From Chytriomyces cf. hyalinus JEL632 (Eukaryota; Chytridiomycota; Chytridiomycetes; Chytridiales; Chytriomycetaceae), in NCBI GenBank assembly GCA_025435555.1, contig JAIWWG010000100.1, forward strand, positions 41,312 through 105,311: a stretch of 64,000 bases of DNA, in the 5' to 3' direction. This document shows positions 12,603 to 26,614 of this stretch, in pieces. A model generated the notes under the pieces. The model made no database searches. It was not told where the DNA came from and saw only the letters and a program-made list of their open reading frames with translations. The stretch's first letter is position 1; every line of letters begins with the position of its first letter. A program made the translations under genes and the position numbers.

Positions 12603-14842
12603 TCACAGCATCAAGACAACCGAGAACGACACAATCCCCACAACAACACTACTAAACGCACCAGACGCCAAAACACCCGTAGCAGCAGGACCACGCGCAG
12701 TCGTCTTCAACGGTCCCACCGTGTAAACCCCACCCGAATTGGATCCCGGCGCAGCAGGCTGATACTGCGCAATCACCGCCGCCGCAGCAGGATTCAACGC
12801 AGCAGGCGCAACGTAAGTACCTTGATACGTAGTCCCATTGTCACATTTAATCATGGGCGGCTGTGGTGGCGAATACTGGCTCAAATTGATTGAGCAATCG
12901 ATTCCACTCCACGGCGCGTCACAAATACATCCCTTTGCAGAACATTGTCCTTTCGCGGAACAAGAATTAATACACGTGTTGTTGTTGTATCCAGCAATGA
13001 TTTGGACATTCGCAGCAACGTTGGTGTTGTTGGAGACTTGAATTGGAGCGGCAATGATGGTTTCACATTGATGATGGCATTGCGCGTTTAAAGCGGCTAA
13101 ATGGCCGGTACTGAAAATGTGGGTTCCAGTGAGGAGGTAGTCGTCCACGCAGGCGCTAATGAGGAATTCAATGTGTTCTGGGATGAGTCCGTCGCAGCCG
13201 GGGACGTTGAGGATCTCGCGGCATTGCAGGGTTGCTTTGAGTTTGTCGGCGTCCGTGTAGATGGGGGTTCCTGGGATGGTGGTGTTGGTGGTTGGGAGGG
13301 TGTAGTTGTAGTTGTTTGGGTCGTAGATTGGGATGTAGACGGATGGGGAAGGGGAAGCGGCAGCGGTGGTGGAGGTGGTGGTCATGGATGCAACACTCGA
13401 AGATGCACTTGAGGAAGTGGAAGGTGAGTTGCCAGCTGGTGGGACCGTGGACGAAGAGGGCACTGACGACGAAGACGCAGAAGAAGAGCTGGAAGAAGCA
13501 GCACCGGTCGACGAAGACGAAGAAGACGTCGCAGCAGCACCAGTCGTGGTCGAGCTAGCAGTGGTGGCAGCAGCGGATGAAGTGGTAGAAGCAGCAGTGC
13601 TCGACGAAGGAGCTGGAACGTTGGAAGTAGTAGTAGCAGGCGAAGTAGGTGGCACAACCACAGCAGAAGTCGTGGAACTTGCGCTCGTTGCTGGGGCAGC
13701 CGATGAAGTGGTCGAAGAAGAAGAGGAAGCAGCTGGAAGCGAGGAAGTCGTGGTAGTCGCAGCACAAACACTCTTTTTGTAATCCGCATCAGTAAACTTG
13801 ATTCCAGGAACAAGATCCTTGTAATCCTTGCCCCACCAAGCAGCCAAAGGTGGGAAACAGGTTCCTTTGGTGTACCGTCCAACCATGTGGTTCTCGCTGT
13901 CGGGTACTCTGTGGGTGTTCCACTTGCAAGATTTGGCGCAAACTCCCGAGTTTTGTTTGATGCTTGCCATGTATGGGGACGCGTTGATTGTGATGCTCAT
14001 TTCGGTAAACATGTGGGTACTGATTGTGACAACGGTACCGTCGTCGGTGGTGAAAACCCATTGGTCCTTGGTGTTGGAGTTTACGGAGATGCCGGTAGTT
14101 TCCTGAGAAATGCGGTTGTATTCGACCGTCTTTCCGGCAGAGTTGGATCCGTACTTTTTCATGGCGGAAACAATCACGACAGAGTCACCGTATCTGTGAT
14201 GGACAAGTTATATTTTTTGGATGTTTAGTCGCTTGTAAACCAGATGATAAACACAAAACAAAACACATACCTGATGGATGCAGCACCGTTACACTTGTAG
14301 TTTCCACACTGGTAGTGATGCGCCTGAACTTCCATGTGCTGGTTCTTGAACAAGTAGAAACCGCCGTGATCCTGGCCTTCACACTTGGATCCGTCAAACA
14401 GCTTCAAATGCGGGTCTCCAGAACTAACACACGTCTTTGGTGGCGAGGATTCGTACTTGACGTCGTAGGTGGACTCACACGTGTGAATTGTGGGGGAGCA
14501 AGGAGCGTTGACACCGTAACGGAGCTTCAAGTTTGCAGCGCTGCCGGTGGAGTAAATGTTTGGCTTGGCCACGAGTGTGACGGTTTGGGGAATGTTCCAG
14601 TTGTCTGGGGTGTAGTTGAGAATGTTGGGATGCATGGTGAATCCGTCAATGTTGAGGGCCTGGGAGACTGTTCCGGCGGGCTTTGAAGTGAGCTGGACGG
14701 TGAAGTTGGCAGCGGCAACACCTGCGGGGTATTGAAGGGTTGCGGGGTTGAATGCAAAGAGTTCCGATGCCTTTCCGCAGTTCTTGAGGTCTTGGGAGAA
14801 GGCTTGGGCAGCGAGGCCCATGAAGATGCAGAGGGTGAGCAT
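12603..14842 (-). CDS. GPI-anchored surface protein: vWD-like domain, Ser/Thr-rich stalk, EGF-like module
   Basis: Two exons, 14842-14271 and 14193-12603, joined at ASIR/YGDS; about 720 residues. Order: a signal peptide (MLTLCIFMGLAAQAFSQ), an N-terminal domain with Cys, a von Willebrand D-like domain beginning CVSSGDPHLKLFDG (about 135 onward, crossing the intron, with GGFYLFKNQ and a YGDSVVIVSAMKK strand), a mucin-like Ser/Thr/Ala stalk of about 140 residues, a second folded part, an EGF-like module (CSAKGQCSAKGCICDAPWSG), and a C-terminal hydrophobic tail preceded by small residues (SGAFSSVVVGIVSFSVVLML), a GPI-attachment signal. vWD domains mediate adhesion and multimer formation in animals, so adhesion or coat function is an inference. 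ATAAATA at about 14953-14961 is a plausible TATA element. The stalk looks like a long acidic frame on the other strand, which is an artefact. Confidence 0.85.
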
Positions 14843-15363
14843 ATGCTAAGGAGGGTTGGTTGGTTGGTTGTTTGGGTGGGTGGGGTGTTGGTTGTTGCTG
14901 GATGTAGTTGGTAGTTTCTGAGAATATCCAAGATGCTGAAGAAGGAGGGAGGGTATTTATGAGAAAGGGGGAAGGTAAATTTTAGTCAATCTTTGAAACG
15001 GAGAAAAACAGAGTGAGTGAGTGAGTGAGTGAGTGAGTGCCAAAAAGAGTTTTTCCATTTGCAAAACTGTTTTATGTAAATAATTAATTGCAATTTTACA
15101 ATTTCAACGAACAAACGCCAACTAACTATCAAACCAATTGATGAAAAATTGATGAAAATTGACAATTATAAATGGGAAAAAATTACTAATTTACACTGGT
15201 TTTAAAGGAGAGAGTCTCTGAAACATGAAAATCCCATTTGTCCTTTATTCTCTTCCTTGAAACGACCATCCATCCCCCACTTTTACACTTTTACACTTTT
15301 ACACTTTCACACTTGGAAACAAAATAAAACACAAAACATTTTATCAACGCTTCGGCATAAATC
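14843..15363. other. Intergenic region with a GAGT microsatellite
   Basis: Promoter of the GPI-protein gene on the left. It holds a (GAGT)n tract at about 15011-15038, TTTTACAC repeated four times at about 15282-15308, and AT-rich sequence at 15060-15180. The right end is the 3' flank of the Cys-rich protein ending at 15364. Confidence 0.6.
15011..15038 (+). repeat. (GAGT)n microsatellite
   Basis: About seven perfect tandem GAGT units, intergenic. Confidence 0.9.
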
Positions 15364-17498: not shown

Positions 17499-20400
17499 AT
17501 GACTGTCCTCTCCAAACCGGGAATCACGCGTCGATACCTTCCCAGATTCAAAACTAGACCCTTGATTATCGTTGCTGTTATCGCCTTGTGTTTGATTGTT
17601 CAGCGTCAGGTATGTGATTACCGCCATTGATTGCTTTCATCTTTCAACGGGGGGTTTAATTGCTTTTGTTGAACAATCATTTTGTAGTGCCATATTATAT
17701 CCATCAAGTTTAAGCGTTCTGAGGTGGATAATTTGAAATGGGTCGATCCAAGAATTGGGACGGGTGAGACACGACTCTTTAAGAAAAAAAAAATTAGTTG
17801 TCTTGTGTTAAAAACATCACACGAAAACAGACGGGGATGGGCACGTATGGCTTGGAGCTAGTGTACCAAACGGTATGGTCAAAGTTTCTGCAGATTCCGG
17901 TTCGTTCCTATTTTTTTTTTTGAGTGTGTCAAGGGTCCTTTGCTAAAATTGGACACCCCGCACAGACCATGTTGAACCTGGATATCATCCAACGCGGCCA
18001 ATCATTGGATTTTCACATACCCATGGTAAAGCAAAGGCTGCCAAAAACTCTTTGTCGCTTTTTCAAACAAAACAATTTTTGAAAAAAACAAAAAACCACA
18101 CAGTATCCGGCACGGGTGGAGGCCGTTCATACCAAAACATGGTCCTAACCCCGCACTGGAACACCGGAAACACTACATTACTAGAACCTTTCGCGACTCG
18201 AATACCCGACTTTGTATCGCACCGTGATTGGGAAGAATCTAAACCTGGATATTACGCAGTCTCGTTATCCAGCGTCAAATTAAACGCGTCCATCACTGCC
18301 GCTGCATCATTTGCAAAACATCAATGGTCGTTTCATTTGGATACAGTTCGAAAAAACAATTTGTTGGCGGCGGGGGAAAATGTGACTTTACATGCAGTGT
18401 TGAAGGCCAAGCATCCGACAATGGGATTTAAATCTGGGGTTGCTGAATCGGATGGATCTAGGATCATGGTGACGGGGGAGTATCAAGGTAGCGAGAATCT
18501 CTTCGCTTTGTTCATGGCTCCGACAGAAAAAGTTTTGTAACTTTTTTTGCGAAAAATTAGATACATGGTCCTCATCCTTTGAATTACACCCGACCAACGG
18601 CATTTATAAAGTATACTCCTGCATGGGCGCAGCATCCACCAAACCGCATCAATACGGCGTTCTAACAAACACCGAATCTCAAAACGGCGGCCGTTCGCAA
18701 GACACCAAAACCGTTCAGGTAAAAACAACAAATTCTGTGGGATTATACGATTACTCGGGAGACGGCGATAACATTGGTGGATACTTTTCCTTCACTGTGG
18801 ACGAAACAATGGCGGATGAAAATGGGAATGTTCAAGTGTTGCTGGATGTTGGAATTTCGTTCAAGTCCATGGATAAGGCTTGCGAGCGGTTAAAAGAGGC
18901 GCAGGCGGTTACTTTTGATGAGCAGGTCAAGATTGCTGCAACGCTTTGGAAACAGGTATTTTTATTTTTGTTTTGACAACTTGCAGATTTGTCGCGTTTC
19001 CTTTTATTTTTTGAAACAAAAAATTGTTCAACAGAATCTCGGCGCAATTTCAGTGCAAGAGCCGCTTCTCCGGAAAGAAGATGAAATCATTTTCTTTTCC
19101 AGTTTCTATCGAATGTTTTTCATGCCAGTGAATCGCACGGGCGAGAATCCAGCGTGGCCGGATGGAACCGAAACTTTGCCTTATTACGACGACTTTTGTA
19201 AGCCTTTTTGTTGAATTCTTTCGTTGCATGGAAAGATATGAATTTTAATTTCTTTATTGTTAGACTGTATTTGGGATACCTTTCGAACGAGTGAGCACTC
19301 CCTTCAAATTTCAGAAATTCATTCTTGCGAAACCTAAAAAAACTTCCGCACCAAAAAAAAAAACAAAAAACACCAGTGAACCCGCTCTTAACTCTCATTG
19401 CACCAAAACTTGAAACCGACCTCATAAACTCACTCATGCTCAGCGCCAAATACAACCGCGGATACCTCGGCGACAGCCACGTCGGAAACTCATTTGGAAT
19501 CACACAAGGCGGCAACAACGCCGAAATCCTTATCACCGAAGCCTTTATCAAAAAAATCCCTGGAATCAACTATACAGCCGCGTATGAGTTACTTCAAACG
19601 AGCAGTGAAACCGAGTCCCCGTTTCATTACATTTTTGAAGGACGCGGTCATGTGGACGAGTATAAAACTGATGGGTATGTTTCTGTGAAATCGAAGGGTG
19701 ATCTTGATGACCTCATGGCGCGGAATAATGGGCGATTCAAGTCGAGTTCGGTTTCAAGGACGGTGGAGTATGCGTATGCGGATTATACGATTGGAATGAT
19801 GGCGAAATCGATGGGGTTTCTGAATGACTCTGTTGCATTGTTGCGGAGGTCTGGAAATTGGAAAATGTTGTGGGATAATGAGACGGTGGATCATGGGTAT
19901 ACCGGGTTTCTGCAACCGCGATTAAAAGCGGTGGATGGGAGACCGGGTCCTTTTAAACGCATATCTCCTACTTTCGGGTCACCTATTAACCATTTCAACG
20001 ACATTGATGAGTTTTACGAAGACTGTTCGTGGTCGTACAGGTGTGTTGGTCTCCCCCCCCCCCTTTTTTCTGACAAGTCCATATCAAGGCGGTTTCTTAT
20101 GTTTGTTTAAACAGCTTCTTTGCTCCACATCAAATGAAAACTGTCATTCAATACATGGGCGGTGATGAAACCTTCATCTCACGAATCGACGCATTCTTCA
20201 AACTCGGCATCTACAACCCAGGAAACGAACCTGCATTCCTCGTCCCCGTCCTCTACCACTACGCAGGAAGACCCGATCTAAGCACGAAACGGTTAGACAC
20301 TATAATCAAAAACAATTTCACATCGCAACCAAACGGGATCCCCGGGAACGATGACAGCGCGTCCATGGGATCGTGGTTCATGTGTGCCGCGATGGGGATT

Positions 20401-20703
20401 TTCCCGGTTGCTGGGCAGGATGTGTATTTGATTGTTGCGCCGCGGTTTCGGGCGGTGACCGTGAGGGTTGGTGAGGAGGGGAGGAATTTGTTCAAGATTC
20501 GTGTTGTTGTGCGGGATGGGGAGGAGGAGGATGCGCGTGTGATTCAAAGCGCGAAATTGAATGGGAGAATCTTGAATCGGTCTTGGTTGAAACATGAAGA
20601 AATTGTTCGTGGAGGAAAGTTGGAGCTGTTTATGGGTTCTAGTTTGCGTGAATGGGGGTATGCAGTTGAGAACCGACCTCCGAGTTTTGATGGTCTTGAT
20701 TGA
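17499..20703 (+). CDS. Glycoside hydrolase family 92 exo-alpha-mannosidase (type II membrane protein)
   Basis: About nine exons joined by GT-AG introns of 55-90 nt. The N-terminus has a short basic stretch and one membrane anchor (RPLIIVAVIALCLIVQRQ), so it is probably a luminal secretory-pathway enzyme rather than a secreted one. GH92 hallmarks follow in order: VDPRIGTDGDGHVWLGASVP, NGMVKVSADS, DHVEPGYHPTRPIIGFSHTH, SGTGGGRSYQN, later GYLGDSHVG, then the C-terminal active-site block starting GNEPAFLVPVLYHYAGRP and the PGNDDSASMGSWFMCAAMG segment. GH92 enzymes are Ca2+-dependent inverting exo-mannosidases acting on alpha-1,2/1,3/1,4/1,6 linkages of N-glycans or mannans. GH92 is abundant in bacteria and present in some fungi. 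It lies immediately before GnT-I and GH47 genes, which points to N-glycan processing. Linkage specificity cannot be read. Confidence 0.88.
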
Positions 20704-20782
20704 ATATAATTACAAAACAGTTGCAAAAACTTTCAAAGATATTCTTGAATTATTGGTAGTATATAGCTTTATTGCGGTGTGC

Positions 20783-22275
20783 TTAGTTGTTCTGAATGAA
20801 TCGTCCATCTTCATCGACAATAAATGCCCGCGATGCCTGCTTCGGTGCAAAGTATGCGATAACCTGCCGGTCAAACACTACCGGTAGAATTCCATCCACA
20901 GCGGACCGGATGACTCCATCATGGACACTGTCTATGATATTTAGCGCCGTTGCTATTGCTGACAGCTCCTCCGGGCTTTCATACTCCACACGAACCTTCA
21001 ACAACCCCGAGTCACACGTCCCATTCATCCGTCCCCATACCACAGCACTCACCATGGGTACCTTCAACACTTCATTCCAAACCCCAAGAATCGCTTCTTC
21101 ATAAACAGATTTAAACAACCGCTTCTTGTAAAACGGATTCCCCAACCCGGCAATCGTTTCCCTCAACTCTGCAAAATCGACGGCATGTTCAAACGTCGTG
21201 TGCGTGTTTCCAGCAACATGCTCTTCAAACATGTATCCATTGCTCACGCCTCGTCTGCCAATGTTTGTGTTGCGCGACATTTCTGGGATGATGCATTGCC
21301 GCCCACGACGTTGCGCATTGTTTCGCATCCATAGATCCCAGCCTTCAACACTGTACTCGGGAAACGGGGCAATGCTTTCATACACGGATCGAGTGAGAAG
21401 CCAACCTAGTCCGGGCATGTGGTCGGTGCGTAACAGGCGTTTTGGGTCGTGTGAGATGGCGTGGGGATGTGCTTGGTCGTTCCAGCTGCTGATGCAGTAG
21501 AGGCTTGGGTCCATGTACATGAGTGGAATGGTTTCTTGAAAGTAGCTGAAGAAATCGGGGCTGACGATAAAGTCGTCTAATTTTTGTTTTTTTTTGTCCA
21601 TGTGTGTGAGGGACGGGAAACGAAACAACGGAATTCGCACCTTCAATGATAATCACATGCTGCGCTTCAGGGTCGGCAAAAAACTTTTCAATAGCCCATT
21701 TATAGTGCCGGGCCACAGCAGTATACGCTTTGAAAGTCTCGTCGTCAGTCGCGTTCGTGTTCGGGGGTGCAAATTCGGTGGTCCAAACGCGTTCGCTGCT
21801 TCCTATCTTTTGAAGTACTAAATCCTGAACCTCTTTTACGCCACAGTCCTGGGTTTCAAGTAATGTTGAGTGAAAATATACATCGTGTGTGCACAGAACA
21901 CGCGAATTACCAAACTGACTGTAACTGGAAACTTTCTCGCGCTTGTTCGATATTTAAAAACAGCGTCCATGGCGCGCCCAATGGATAACCGGCTGCATCC
22001 CATGATGAGGACAGGGATAGGCGAGTCTTTCATTTGTTTGACCATTTGAAGGTATTTCGCGACGTGTTCTTTTTCGGAATCGAATTGTTTTGATGGAGGA
22101 GTCTTTCAATGATGCACACAGAATTTCGTAAGGTTGGATAGGCATGATTACACAAAGAGGAGGAAACCTTGTCTCTGCACGGAGATGGTACTGAGAATGA
22201 GCAGATGTAGAACACAAGCAAGACTGAAATCATGAACCACACTCGAGTTCGAATCGCGCGGGTAATTTGGGTCAT
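20783..22275 (-). CDS. MGAT1: N-acetylglucosaminyltransferase I-like (GT13) type II membrane protein
   Basis: Four exons fit by phase: 22275 to about 22168, then from TPPSKQFDSEKEHVAKYLQM to SLD, then DCGVKEVQDLVLQKIG to the EDD motif, and 21576-20783. An N-terminal anchor (VWFMISVLLVFYICSFSV) follows the ATG. The catalytic domain has PIPVLIMGCSRL, FPVTVSLDCG, the metal/UDP-binding VIIIEDDFIVSPDFFSYFQ (HVIIIEDD), DPSLYCISSWND, MPGLGWLLTRS, WDLWMRN and GRRGVSNGYMFEEH, in the order of animal GnT-I. GnT-I adds GlcNAc to the alpha-1,3 arm of Man5GlcNAc2 in the Golgi and opens hybrid/complex N-glycan synthesis. A related GT13 enzyme such as POMGnT cannot be excluded. The gene is tail-to-tail with GH92 (79 bases) and divergent from GH47. 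Confidence 0.85.
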
Positions 22276-22472
22276 TTTTTATCGTGAGATGTCGGCATTC
22301 AAACACTTGTCATTGTCTAAAAAACTTCGGCCTTGAAAAACCGGACAATTGAAATGGCATTGTTACATTTCCCATTGAAACTTCATTGGAAAGAAAACCA
22401 AATACCTGCTCCCAGATTCCAAACCTATTCTCATCCTTACTCACTCCGGACTCTGGGAAAAACATTAGGGCA
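22276..22472. promoter_or_regulatory. Shared divergent promoter of the GnT-I and GH47 genes
   Basis: Only 197 bases separate the start codons of the minus-strand GnT-I gene and the plus-strand GH47 gene, so the two must share an upstream region. I see no clear TATA box. Co-regulation of two successive Golgi steps is an inference from the arrangement. Confidence 0.5.
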
Positions 22473-24638
22473 ATGATTGTCGTCTACGGATCCACGCGCG
22501 TGCATTTTCCAAACAGATTTCAACTCATCTATTTGCTCACTGCGATCTGCGCACTTGCCATCGTGAGTCTAAGTCTCATGCCTACTTTGTCGGATACATT
22601 GTCTGTCCGTCAAAAACGCGATATGGATGTCAAAGTTGCTGGTACCACCGCGTTTGATGCGTCAAAGGAGAAGAAATTGGGGCTCAACTTGCCACCTTTT
22701 TTGAGCACCGGACGCCAAAATAGCGATCCTCAAAAGATGCAGTTTGTGAAGGAGGTGCGGTACAGATTTTGTTCAAGTATCTCAGTTTATTCACATAAAA
22801 AAAAAAAAAAGATGATGGAACACGCATGGTCCGGGTACGTAAAATACGCGTGGGGCCACGATGACCTGCAACCCATCTCCAAAACGGGTTACGACTGGTA
22901 CCAAACACAAAACCTCCTCAACACGCCCGTGGACGCTCTCGACACACTCTATATCATGGGTCTCCACGCCGAATACAACGCCTCCAAACATTTAATCCTC
23001 GAAACGCTGGATTTCAAGAAAATCACGCAGGCTGTGAGTGTGTTTGAAACAGTGATTCGCGTGTTGGGTGGGTTGCTGGCTGCGTATGATTTGGAAGGGG
23101 ATGCGCGGTTGGTTGAAAAATGTGTGGAGTTGGCAGATTTGTTGTTGCCGGCTTTTGATGGGGAGTCTGGGTTTCCAGTGAATCAACTGGTTCTTGCGAC
23201 GTGAGTTGTTTTTTTCTTTTGCTTGCGTTGAATTATTTTTCAAAGACGGTCTGATTTGATTTGATTTGCCAAAGTGGAGAGACTCGTGGATCTCGTACCG
23301 CTCTAAGTCTCGCTGAAATCGGATCACTTCAGCTCGAGTTTCAGTATCTCTCGGACGTGACTGGGAATCCCATGTATGCTGAAAAGGCACTGTTTGTTTA
23401 CAAGCAACTGCAAACTATCAAAACACCGATTCCTGGACTATACCCGGAGTATATACATTCGGGAGATATTCGGGGCGAGGTTCAAGGTAAACTGCTTGGG
23501 CGTGTAGTGTTTTTCGAAAATGACATTGTCAAATACCAAAACAAAAAAAGGCGGCAAAGTTTCACTTGGAGGGATGTCAGATTCGTACTACGAATATCTT
23601 TTGAAAATGTGGCTTTCAACCGGCGAATCCAAGTTCTTTGACATGTACTATGAGGCAGCACAGGTGCCAAACGCAAAATCTTTTTCTACCTAAGTCTCCT
23701 CTTTGCCTTTAAACATTTTCTTTGGGATCCAAGGGATTTGGAAGCCGCCTTGTCCGACATTCGCCAAGCGGATACCTCTTTGTCCCAGGCGCAAACGTCA
23801 GGAGATATACTCAAGAAGATGGAAGCACCAGTGTCTCTGTCGACAGCGAGAATTCATTTGATCATTTAGTGCGTGCAGTATACCATTCAAATTTCGCGAA
23901 ATACCAACACTCTGAACTCTGCCTTTATGCAGGCTTGTTTCGCGGGTGGAATGTTTGCAACAGGAGCCTTGGCATCACGAACAGGAGAATGGACGCACCA
24001 TTTAGATATTGGTCGGAAAATCACAGACTACTGCTGGAAAATGTATGAAAATACAATGACTGGGATTGGACCCGAAAACGCGGAGGGCGATGCTGTTGCG
24101 CGGGATCCAAGATACCATCTGAGGTAAGCTTTTTTGATATTGATGTACCGTACATAAGGGCATGCGCCGTTTATTTAATTTTCACACAGACCAGAAGCTG
24201 TTGAATCCCTATTTTACATGTGGAGACTCACACATGACCCTGTCTATCGACAACGCGCATGGACGATTACAAAGATGCTTGAAAAGTATTGCAAAGACGA
24301 TGGTGGGTACCATGGCCTTACAGATGTGAATGAGGTGGATGGGGAAGCAATGGATCGGCAGGAATCCTTCTTTTTGGCGGAGACGCTCAAGTACTTGTAT
24401 CTGTGAGTTTATTTAGGTTTGGTTATGCAAGCAGACAGATGCCTTTTTATTGAAACGCAAATGATGCAGAATCTTTGCCGACGATGACACGATTGCGCTT
24501 GAAAAATACGTCTTCAACACGGAAGCGCATGTACTCTCGGTACGAGGCCACGGGCGAAGAAGGGACACGTCCAAGTATTCCCCAGTCCCGTTTTACGGCA
24601 CACCCGATGAGCCGGTGTTGTTTGTTCAGGAAGATTAA
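22473..24638 (+). CDS. Mannosyl-oligosaccharide alpha-1,2-mannosidase, GH47
   Basis: Class I alpha-mannosidase that removes alpha-1,2-mannose from Man9-8GlcNAc2 in ER/Golgi. The ATG at 22473 starts a protein with one anchor (FQLIYLLTAICALAIVSLSL). About eight exons follow. Motifs in order: HAWSGYVKYAWGHDDLQPIS, VDALDTLYIMGL, VFETVIRVLGGLLAAYDL, AEIGSLQLEFQYLSDVTGNP, GGMSDSYYEYLLKMWLSTGE, SPSGYLFV, FDHL then ACFAGGMFATGAL across an intron at about 23868, RPEAVESLFYMWRLTHDPVY, and the C-terminal RQESFFLAETLKYLYL and FNTEAHVLS, whose Thr coordinates Ca2+ in the family. The length fits a normal enzyme. It differs from EDEM-type proteins by the full C-terminal signature. It shares a promoter region with GnT-I. 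Confidence 0.9.
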
Positions 24639-25696: not shown

Positions 25697-26125
25697 TATT
25701 TTTGGGGACCCTTGTTTGTGGAGATAGTGAAGGGAGACAGTTGTTCAAGATGCTTTTTTTTTTGTGCAAATTATAAATGATTTTGTTATGGATGCTTGGG
25801 GGAAAGTACAGCGCTGGGCATGGCATTGTTTTATTTGTTGTTTTTGTGGGTGTATTTTGGGTGTGGAAAAGTGGGCAGAGTGAGTCACGGTGTTTTTGTG
25901 AATGCATCATGAGCTAAAATATTTGTTTATATATGGACGCGTGTGGAATAGCAGACAATGACTTGATCGTTGAAGCTGTGAAGCAAGGAGACATGTCTCA
26001 TTAATAAAAACAGTCAATAAATATTTGGGTTTGAACTTTGTGAGCGTTGAACCTATTTGAACACAGGGAATGACTTCCATAAAAACAAAAGCAACACCTC
26101 TTTCAAAAGAACACGATACAAAACC
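25697..26125. other. Intergenic, divergent promoters
   Basis: Upstream of the single-pass membrane gene (-) and of the CDCGGCD gene (+). T runs at about 25754-25764. No gene recognised. Confidence 0.5.
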
Positions 26126-26614
26126 ATGCAGTCCATCCCATACGTACCGCTGGCAGACAGCTTCGACCTCCCTGCATACCAGACACTGGACATGCCGCAT
26201 GCCCCTCAATCGCAAATGCAGATCCCATCCCTCCTCGACGCCCAAAACACACAATCGCAAATGCAAATCCCACCCCTTCTTAACACGGAAACCATCCTCC
26301 AACAACATCCACTGCAGCTGCAACAACCCCGCGCTCCAAATCCATCCACGTGGCCGTCATGCAATTGTTCCTGCCCAAGCGCCGGGTCTTGCAATGGACT
26401 CGGCGACTTGATCGTGGCGTTGGTAGAATGCGGTTTTTGTATCGGAAACGGTTGTGTTGGGTGCATGCATGCAGTGTGTGAGGTGTGTGGGGATTGTTCG
26501 TGTGATTGCTGTAGCGGATGTGACTGCGATTGTAGCGGCTGTGATTGTGGGGGGTGTGATTGTGGAGGTTGTGATTGCGGCGGTTGTGGTGATTGTGGGG
26601 GTTGTGCGTGCTAG
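26126..26614 (+). CDS. Gln-rich protein with Cys/Gly/Asp repeat tail
   Basis: 162 residues, ATG at 26126 in a good context (AACC-ATG). The head is polar and Gln-rich, with two imperfect repeats (APQSQMQIPSLLDAQN and TQSQMQIPPLLNTE). From about 75 onward the tail is Cys-rich: CNCSCPSAGSC, then the hydrophobic GLGDLIVALVECGFCIGNGC, then tandem CDCGGCD-type units to the end (GCDCGGCDCGGCDCGGCGDC). The terminal repeats have C-x-C-x-x-C spacing, which could bind metal or be densely acylated or disulphide-bonded. The layout (polar head, short hydrophobic Cys segment, Cys tail) parallels the small Cys-tail genes at 15364-17186. I do not recognise a named family; a metal-binding or membrane-tethered role is a guess. 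Confidence 0.6.
   Translation: MQSIPYVPLADSFDLPAYQTLDMPHAPQSQMQIPSLLDAQNTQSQMQIPPLLNTETILQQHPLQLQQPRAPNPSTWPSCNCSCPSAGSCNGLGDLIVALVECGFCIGNGCVGCMHAVCEVCGDCSCDCCSGCDCDCSGCDCGGCDCGGCDCGGCGDCGGCAC

Follow-up and report, generated by a model that had tools for sequence, protein, structure and literature searches.

What would three genes of N-glycan-processing families, standing side by side in a chytrid fungus, do together, and is their adjacency more than an accident? The question is raised by a stretch of 64,000 nucleotides from Chytriomyces cf. hyalinus JEL632 (hereafter the window; positions 41312-105311 of contig C3 in an assembly of 37.8 Mb and 242 contigs), in which intact spliced genes for a GH92 exo-alpha-mannosidase, a GT13 glycosyltransferase of the GnT-I/MGAT1-like type and a GH47 alpha-1,2-mannosidase adjoin one another. 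The initial annotation of this DNA had described them as a compact N-glycan maturation locus. The key relationships of the three enzymes, of their neighbourhood and of the possible route that they would form are described below.

Three adjoining genes

The GH92 gene (17499..20703, + strand) encodes 845 amino acids in 10 exons (17499-17609, 17688-17763, 17831-17899, 17966-18025, 18104-18487, 18561-18955, 19035-19197, 19264-19290, 19377-20040 and 20115-20703). Its stop codon faces that of the converging GT13 gene across 79 bases (20704..20782). The GT13 gene (20783..22275, - strand) encodes 433 amino acids in four exons (22275-22168, 22102-21911, 21848-21641 and 21576-20783) and diverges from the GH47 gene across 197 bases (22276..22472), a putative shared promoter. 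The GH47 gene (22473..24638, + strand) encodes 567 amino acids in eight exons (22473-22754, 22812-23200, 23275-23486, 23551-23663, 23734-23868, 23933-24123, 24190-24402 and 24470-24638).

All three genes were spliced manually at GT..AG introns, and the resulting models agree to the base with the genes, the order and the two gaps given by the initial annotation. For GT13 and GH92, the model matches a deposited JEL632 protein residue for residue from end to end (P0001 and P0024, respectively). The GH47 model is 93% identical across 100% of its length to P0144 of Chytriomyces hyalinus, which represents a five-member cluster in a protein collection clustered at 90%; the GH47 of JEL632 itself is probably among the five members. 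A Pfam scan of five single-frame pieces of the three genes, rather than of the whole spliced proteins, placed the GH92 catalytic domain, the GNT-I domain and the GH47 domain above their cut-offs, and the original family calls are thereby borne out; the GH92 N domain reached 34.2 bits on its exon piece, just below the cut-off of 34.5, and the whole deposited GH92 protein carries both the N and the catalytic domains in its precomputed annotation.

Each of the three proteins starts with a hydrophobic stretch (approximately residues 12-30 in GT13 and 18-36 in GH47, and likewise in GH92), which is probably a membrane (signal) anchor, and all three are probably type II proteins anchored in secretory-pathway membranes, putatively those of the Golgi.

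Identity of the three enzymes

The GNT-I domain is recognized in the last-exon frame of GT13 by itself (157.8 bits, cut-off 25.4), and the best match among solved structures is rabbit GnT-I (1fo9, 207.8 bits), aligned over residues 64-416. The match to POMGnT1 (5ggf, 127.4 bits) spans only residues 144-291, with local likeness around WDxWMR and GRxCIIP. In a midpoint-rooted tree of the 23 proteins found, of which three are named MGAT1 and two POMGnT1, five chytrid rows form a single clade (100/100) that joins the animal MGAT1 rows at 91/88, and a 98/98 branch separates POMGnT1 together with a group that includes several rows with an additional PF05060. We assume here the numbering and roles of rabbit GnT-I, with EDD as the metal site and a catalytic Asp. 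The corresponding motif of the chytrid protein, interrupted by an intron, is EDD (E169-D170-D171), whereas both POMGnT1 rows carry EED; W249-D250 are the equivalents of rabbit W290 and D291, and the counterparts of rabbit R117, H190 and D144 (here D101) are retained as well. By tree position and motifs, GT13 is assigned to the MGAT1/GnT-I branch, as its original GnT-I-like label implied, and we reject a POMGnT1 identity from the tree.

With animal MGAT1/GnT-I (rabbit 1fo8 and 1fo9), the GT13 of the locus shares this place in the tree, the EDD motif, the W-D pair, most of the catalytic chain, the hydrophobic N-terminus and a length of about 430 amino acids; it differs in an identity of only 30-31% to the three animal MGAT1 rows, in its fungal host and in that neither a GnT-II nor a Golgi mannosidase II was detected as a partner. 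The structure model of GT13 (mean pLDDT 57.4) was too poor for use. The GT13 proteins of JEL632 and Siphonaria keep Asp at the position equivalent to rabbit D144, which we take to be a uracil contact; Chytriomyces sp. MP71 holds three diverged copies (P0003, P0004 and P0005) with Gly, Gly and Ala, respectively, at this position. In the protein of Siphonaria sp. JEL0065 (P0002), a 16-residue insert falls at precisely the EDD codon that an intron interrupts in JEL632, as if an unspliced intron had been left in the deposited model.

GH47 is most similar, among solved structures, to Golgi alpha-mannosidase IA (1nxc, 345.5 bits), followed at a distance by endoplasmic reticulum (ER) mannosidase I (1x9d, 271.5 bits). 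In its motif GGMSDSYYEY, the Arg that marks the ER type just ahead of the catalytic DSYYEY is missing. Human ER mannosidase I reads GARAD here, and the GH47 copy on contig C46 of this genome has GARADSYYEY. We take the residue at this position to separate the ER from the Golgi class of GH47, and on these grounds the GH47 of the locus is classed as Golgi-like. It thus resembles Golgi alpha-mannosidase IA in its best solved match and in the absence of the ER-type arginine, and differs in being one of six GH47 places found in the genome.

GH92 was found at one place in the genome search, the locus. The catalytic acid, E643, is present in 26 of 26 alignment rows, and the NDD motif (N728-D729-D730) is whole, with the base D730, in 25 of the 26; P0033 occurs twice in this alignment, which therefore holds 25 different rows. 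The best sequence matches are BT3130 (6f8z, 172.5 bits), 7zgm (163.9 bits) and BT3965 (158.7 bits); BT3990 gives 112.6 bits. The linkages cleaved are alpha-1,3 for BT3130, alpha-1,4 for BT3965 and alpha-1,2 for BT3990 according to the available text of PMC10167667, and the entry 7zgm is titled a plant N-glycan specific alpha-1,3-mannosidase. The structure model is of good quality (mean pLDDT 82.4, pTM 0.85), with an N-terminal helix at residues 21-44 that lies in a region of lower confidence. When its fold is compared, BT3130 comes first by E-value and BT3965 next, and 7zgm is 26th, below BT3990; the TM-scores are alike across GH92 subtypes, approximately 0.72-0.74 (about 0.73 for BT3130 and about 0.74 for the alpha-1,2 enzyme BT3990).

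Alpha-1,2-specific GH92 enzymes are characterized by a DED motif and a His-Glu 580-loop, as described in the accessible part of PMC12858847. Neither is present in the GH92 of the locus, which has NDD and only seven residues between FF and GNEP; the pattern used to measure this loop matched chytrid rows only. Because BT3965 is an alpha-1,4 enzyme and yet also shows NDD, we describe this protein as apparently not alpha-1,2-like and perhaps alpha-1,3. With the alpha-1,3 enzymes BT3130 (6f8z) and AnGH92A it shares the acid Glu and NDD, and AnGH92A likewise has no 580-loop, according to the accessible part of PMC12858847. A signal peptide is predicted for AnGH92A, and BT3130 comes from a bacterium, whereas the GH92 of the locus is read as membrane-anchored, and it lacks FTSCYL, the signature of the AnGH92A clade.

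The neighborhood in this genome and in relatives

Among 55 loci of nine glycan-related families in the genome, these three genes are the sole cross-family neighbors within 10 kb or 50 kb. In 20,000 random placements, three different families fell within 10 kb in 0.135% of draws and at least one cross-family pair did so in 39%; these values are post hoc, come from one genome, carry no correction for how many windows were read, ignore contig ends, exclude one weak PF02709 match (3.1e-4) and rely on family lists that are lower bounds. The locus recalls the polysaccharide utilization loci of bacteria, in which neighboring genes serve one glycan class. It shares with them adjoining genes for one glycan class and differs in that it comprises only three genes, which converge and diverge and were not observed together in relatives.

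Relatives were compared through searches limited to annotated proteins of 0.55-1.75 times the query size that share words with the query, with the best 120 of 1358 matches listed for GH92 and the best 120 of 2876 for GH47, and neighborhood was judged from contig sizes in the protein tables rather than from gene order, some of the contigs being short. The listed matches of Chytriomyces sp. MP71, one GH92 (60,676 bases), three GT13 (57,928, 19,664 and 49,767) and four GH47 (25,996, 38,279, 42,627 and 13,123), lie on contigs of eight different sizes. No two of the three families share a contig size among the listed matches of four further genera, namely Siphonaria (GT13 on 4,421 bases; GH92 on 39,721 and 32,610; GH47 on 25,320), Obelidium (GH92 on 741,013; GH47 on 371,128, twice, and 195,288), Podochytrium (GH92 on 3,969; GH47 on 6,865 and 18,797) and Physocladia (GH92 on 31,872; GH47 on 17,809 and 1,985). 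Synteny in related chytrids, which the initial annotation had itself put forward as the check on its proposal, is thus contradicted, if indirectly; from these contig sizes, we reject a conserved synteny outside C. hyalinus, with the reservation that the GT13 contig of Siphonaria is just 4,421 bases long.

The GH92 tree, built with 16 non-chytrid rows chosen by hand out of 111 such hits listed, splits the nine chytrid rows into two branches (100/99 and 100/100). The lineages bearing GT13 (JEL632, MP71 and Siphonaria) all lie in one of these branches, together with C. hyalinus, whose GH92 relatives (P0025, one member, and P0026, four members) are 86-87% identical to that of the locus. Obelidium, Physocladia and Podochytrium are represented only in the other branch and have no GT13 among the listed matches. 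This co-occurrence is a hint, given the few species and the exception of C. hyalinus. One row, P0031 of Physocladia obscura, joins GH92 to PF13850 and PF07970, probably two genes merged by annotation; its first 370 residues, the fused part, were omitted from the tree.

The window contains 91 open frames of 140 amino acids or more, and the 30 of these scanned outside the cluster have no match to glycan-processing families. Two adjoining open frames lie at 12606-14845 (-), of which one is Ser/Thr-rich, ends in a hydrophobic tail and has an EGF-like match that is weak, whereas the second has no Pfam match; an open frame at 26051-26611 (+) has a Cys/Gly-rich C-terminus and no Pfam match.

A possible hybrid-type route and its alternatives

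Taken together, these relationships allow us to propose a route, to which we give about an even chance of being correct as a whole. The Golgi-like GH47 would trim alpha-1,2-mannose to yield Man5GlcNAc2, and GT13 would then place a beta-1,2-linked N-acetylglucosamine (GlcNAc) on the alpha-1,3 arm, that is, carry out the GnT-I reaction, giving rise to hybrid-type N-glycans. GH92 would remove mannose with a preference other than alpha-1,2, perhaps alpha-1,3, in the same compartment or from other mannosylated glycans; such a preference would suit a step around GnT-I. GH47 and GT13, which diverge across 197 bases, may be co-regulated, and the neighborhood would be young and confined to this lineage rather than an old conserved locus. 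The reactions, their order, the Golgi setting, the co-regulation and the age of the neighborhood are all part of the proposal, as is the idea that the three genes form a functional unit.

Among the other glycan genes of the genome, those of the nucleotide-sugar-transporter type count in favor of the route. The genome search found GT13 at a single place, the locus; GH38, GT10, GT17 and genes of the nucleotide-sugar-transporter type at two places each; and O-mannosyltransferases at approximately six. The GT17 places (GnT-III family; L022 on contig C210 and L023 on C162) occur in a genome without a detected GnT-II. GT32 (Gly_transf_sug) has 33 hits, several of them locally grouped (contigs C111, C145, C166, C177 and C187). 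If GnT-I works in this organism, the simplest product would be hybrid-type glycans.

Several observations count against the proposed route. One exon frame of each GH38 place, set against solved structures, matched entries named Ams1 best, and no Golgi mannosidase II entry was among the eight matches of either frame. Neither GnT-II nor FUT8 was found in the genome search, in which no positive control matched; the empty FUT8 search contrasts with the FUT8-type genes attributed to chytrids in the available part of PMC10481521. Nothing downstream, neither a GH38 of the Golgi mannosidase II type nor a GnT-II, was thus detected that would show use of a GnT-I product. GH47 occurs at five places besides the locus, and no GT13 is among the listed matches for C. 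hyalinus, although GH92 and GH47 (93%) are present there. GH92 is also found in chytrids without any listed GT13; its NDD motif is shared with the alpha-1,4 enzyme BT3965 and with AnGH92B, which is inactive on oligosaccharides (PMC12858847, in the part accessible). The anchors are read from hydropathy alone, and P0027, a GH92 relative deposited for Siphonaria, has no hydrophobic N-terminal stretch (0.68). In the GT13 tree, the MGAT1 rows by themselves group at 86/75, and two rows are long.

The best-surviving alternative, a real possibility, is that the genes are coincidental neighbors, with each enzyme in a pathway of its own: GH92 and GH47 in general trimming or mannan turnover and GT13 elsewhere in the Golgi. 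It fits the lack of a common contig size in relatives, the listed GH92 without listed GT13 in Obelidium, Physocladia and Podochytrium, the ease with which random placement brings some cross-family pair together and the 30 further frames scanned in the window, none of which matched a glycan-processing family. Against it stand the rarity of three families within 10 kb, a post hoc figure, and the fact that both single-place genes of the genome, GT13 and GH92, sit in the cluster.

Unlikely is a hybrid-type route in which a Golgi-anchored GH92 replaces, from an unrelated family, the Golgi mannosidase II (GH38) that removes mannose after GnT-I in animals and plants, so that three steps would be encoded side by side. 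No Golgi mannosidase II-type GH38 was detected, the GH92 N-terminus is hydrophobic, its best sequence matches are the alpha-1,3 enzyme BT3130 and the plant N-glycan alpha-1,3-mannosidase 7zgm, and its branch covers the three GT13 lineages, species confined to the other branch having no listed GT13. C. hyalinus, however, belongs to this GH92 branch with no GT13 among its listed matches, the fold hardly separates BT3130 from BT3990 and leaves 7zgm at the 26th place, P0027 lacks the anchor stretch, and GnT-I would lose its substrate to an alpha-1,3 enzyme that acted ahead of it.

It is distinctly improbable that GT13 adds GlcNAc to O-mannose in the manner of POMGnT1 rather than to N-glycans. The approximately six O-mannosyltransferase places and the local POMGnT1 likeness at WDxWMR and GRxCIIP would suit such a role; the 98/98 branch between GT13 and the two POMGnT1 rows, the EDD in place of EED, the alignment to most of the GnT-I chain and to just part of POMGnT1, and the absence of PF15711, carried by both POMGnT1 rows (P0012 and P0013), argue against it. 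Contamination, or a recent insertion of foreign DNA, is a very improbable source of the GT13 stretch: other C. hyalinus have no GT13 among the listed matches, identity to the MP71 copies is 39-43% for GT13 versus 56% for GH92 and 60% for GH47, and its codon usage agrees least with that of GH92 (r 0.42, other pairs 0.54-0.58), but its three introns (62-65 bases) resemble those of its neighbors, its GC content (0.49) is near theirs (0.47 and 0.49), it shares a clade with other chytrids, the Siphonaria insert sits at the very EDD codon that the JEL632 intron interrupts, as though that intron had been retained, and only short two-copy repeats (14-17 bases) surround it, so that there is little sign of foreign origin.

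Of the maturation locus of the initial annotation, then, what stands are the families, the intactness of the genes, the N-terminal hydrophobicity, the GnT-I place of GT13 and the Golgi-like class of GH47, and what lacks support is a conserved locus. The clustering matters less, because the relatives checked did not show it, and the interesting part is an MGAT1-type gene in a fungus. In the accessible part of PMC5225481, the GNT-I domain is reported only from animals and plants, and fungi are said to have no Golgi mannosidase II genes; that text never uses the word chytrid. GT13 was found in one of 103 fungi surveyed, a basidiomycete, with no chytrid (PMC3652786, available part), and GH47 in every zoosporic species covered by another survey, which lists GH92 once (PMC6690862, available part). 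Literature searches on GnT-I in chytrids and fungi returned no prior report of GnT-I in chytrids in the portions of the sources available. The MGAT1-type genes of JEL632, MP71 and Siphonaria indicate that some chytrids have them; a chytrid MGAT1 bears on the timing of the loss of the hybrid/complex N-glycan route in fungi and makes a direct test of the glycans possible.

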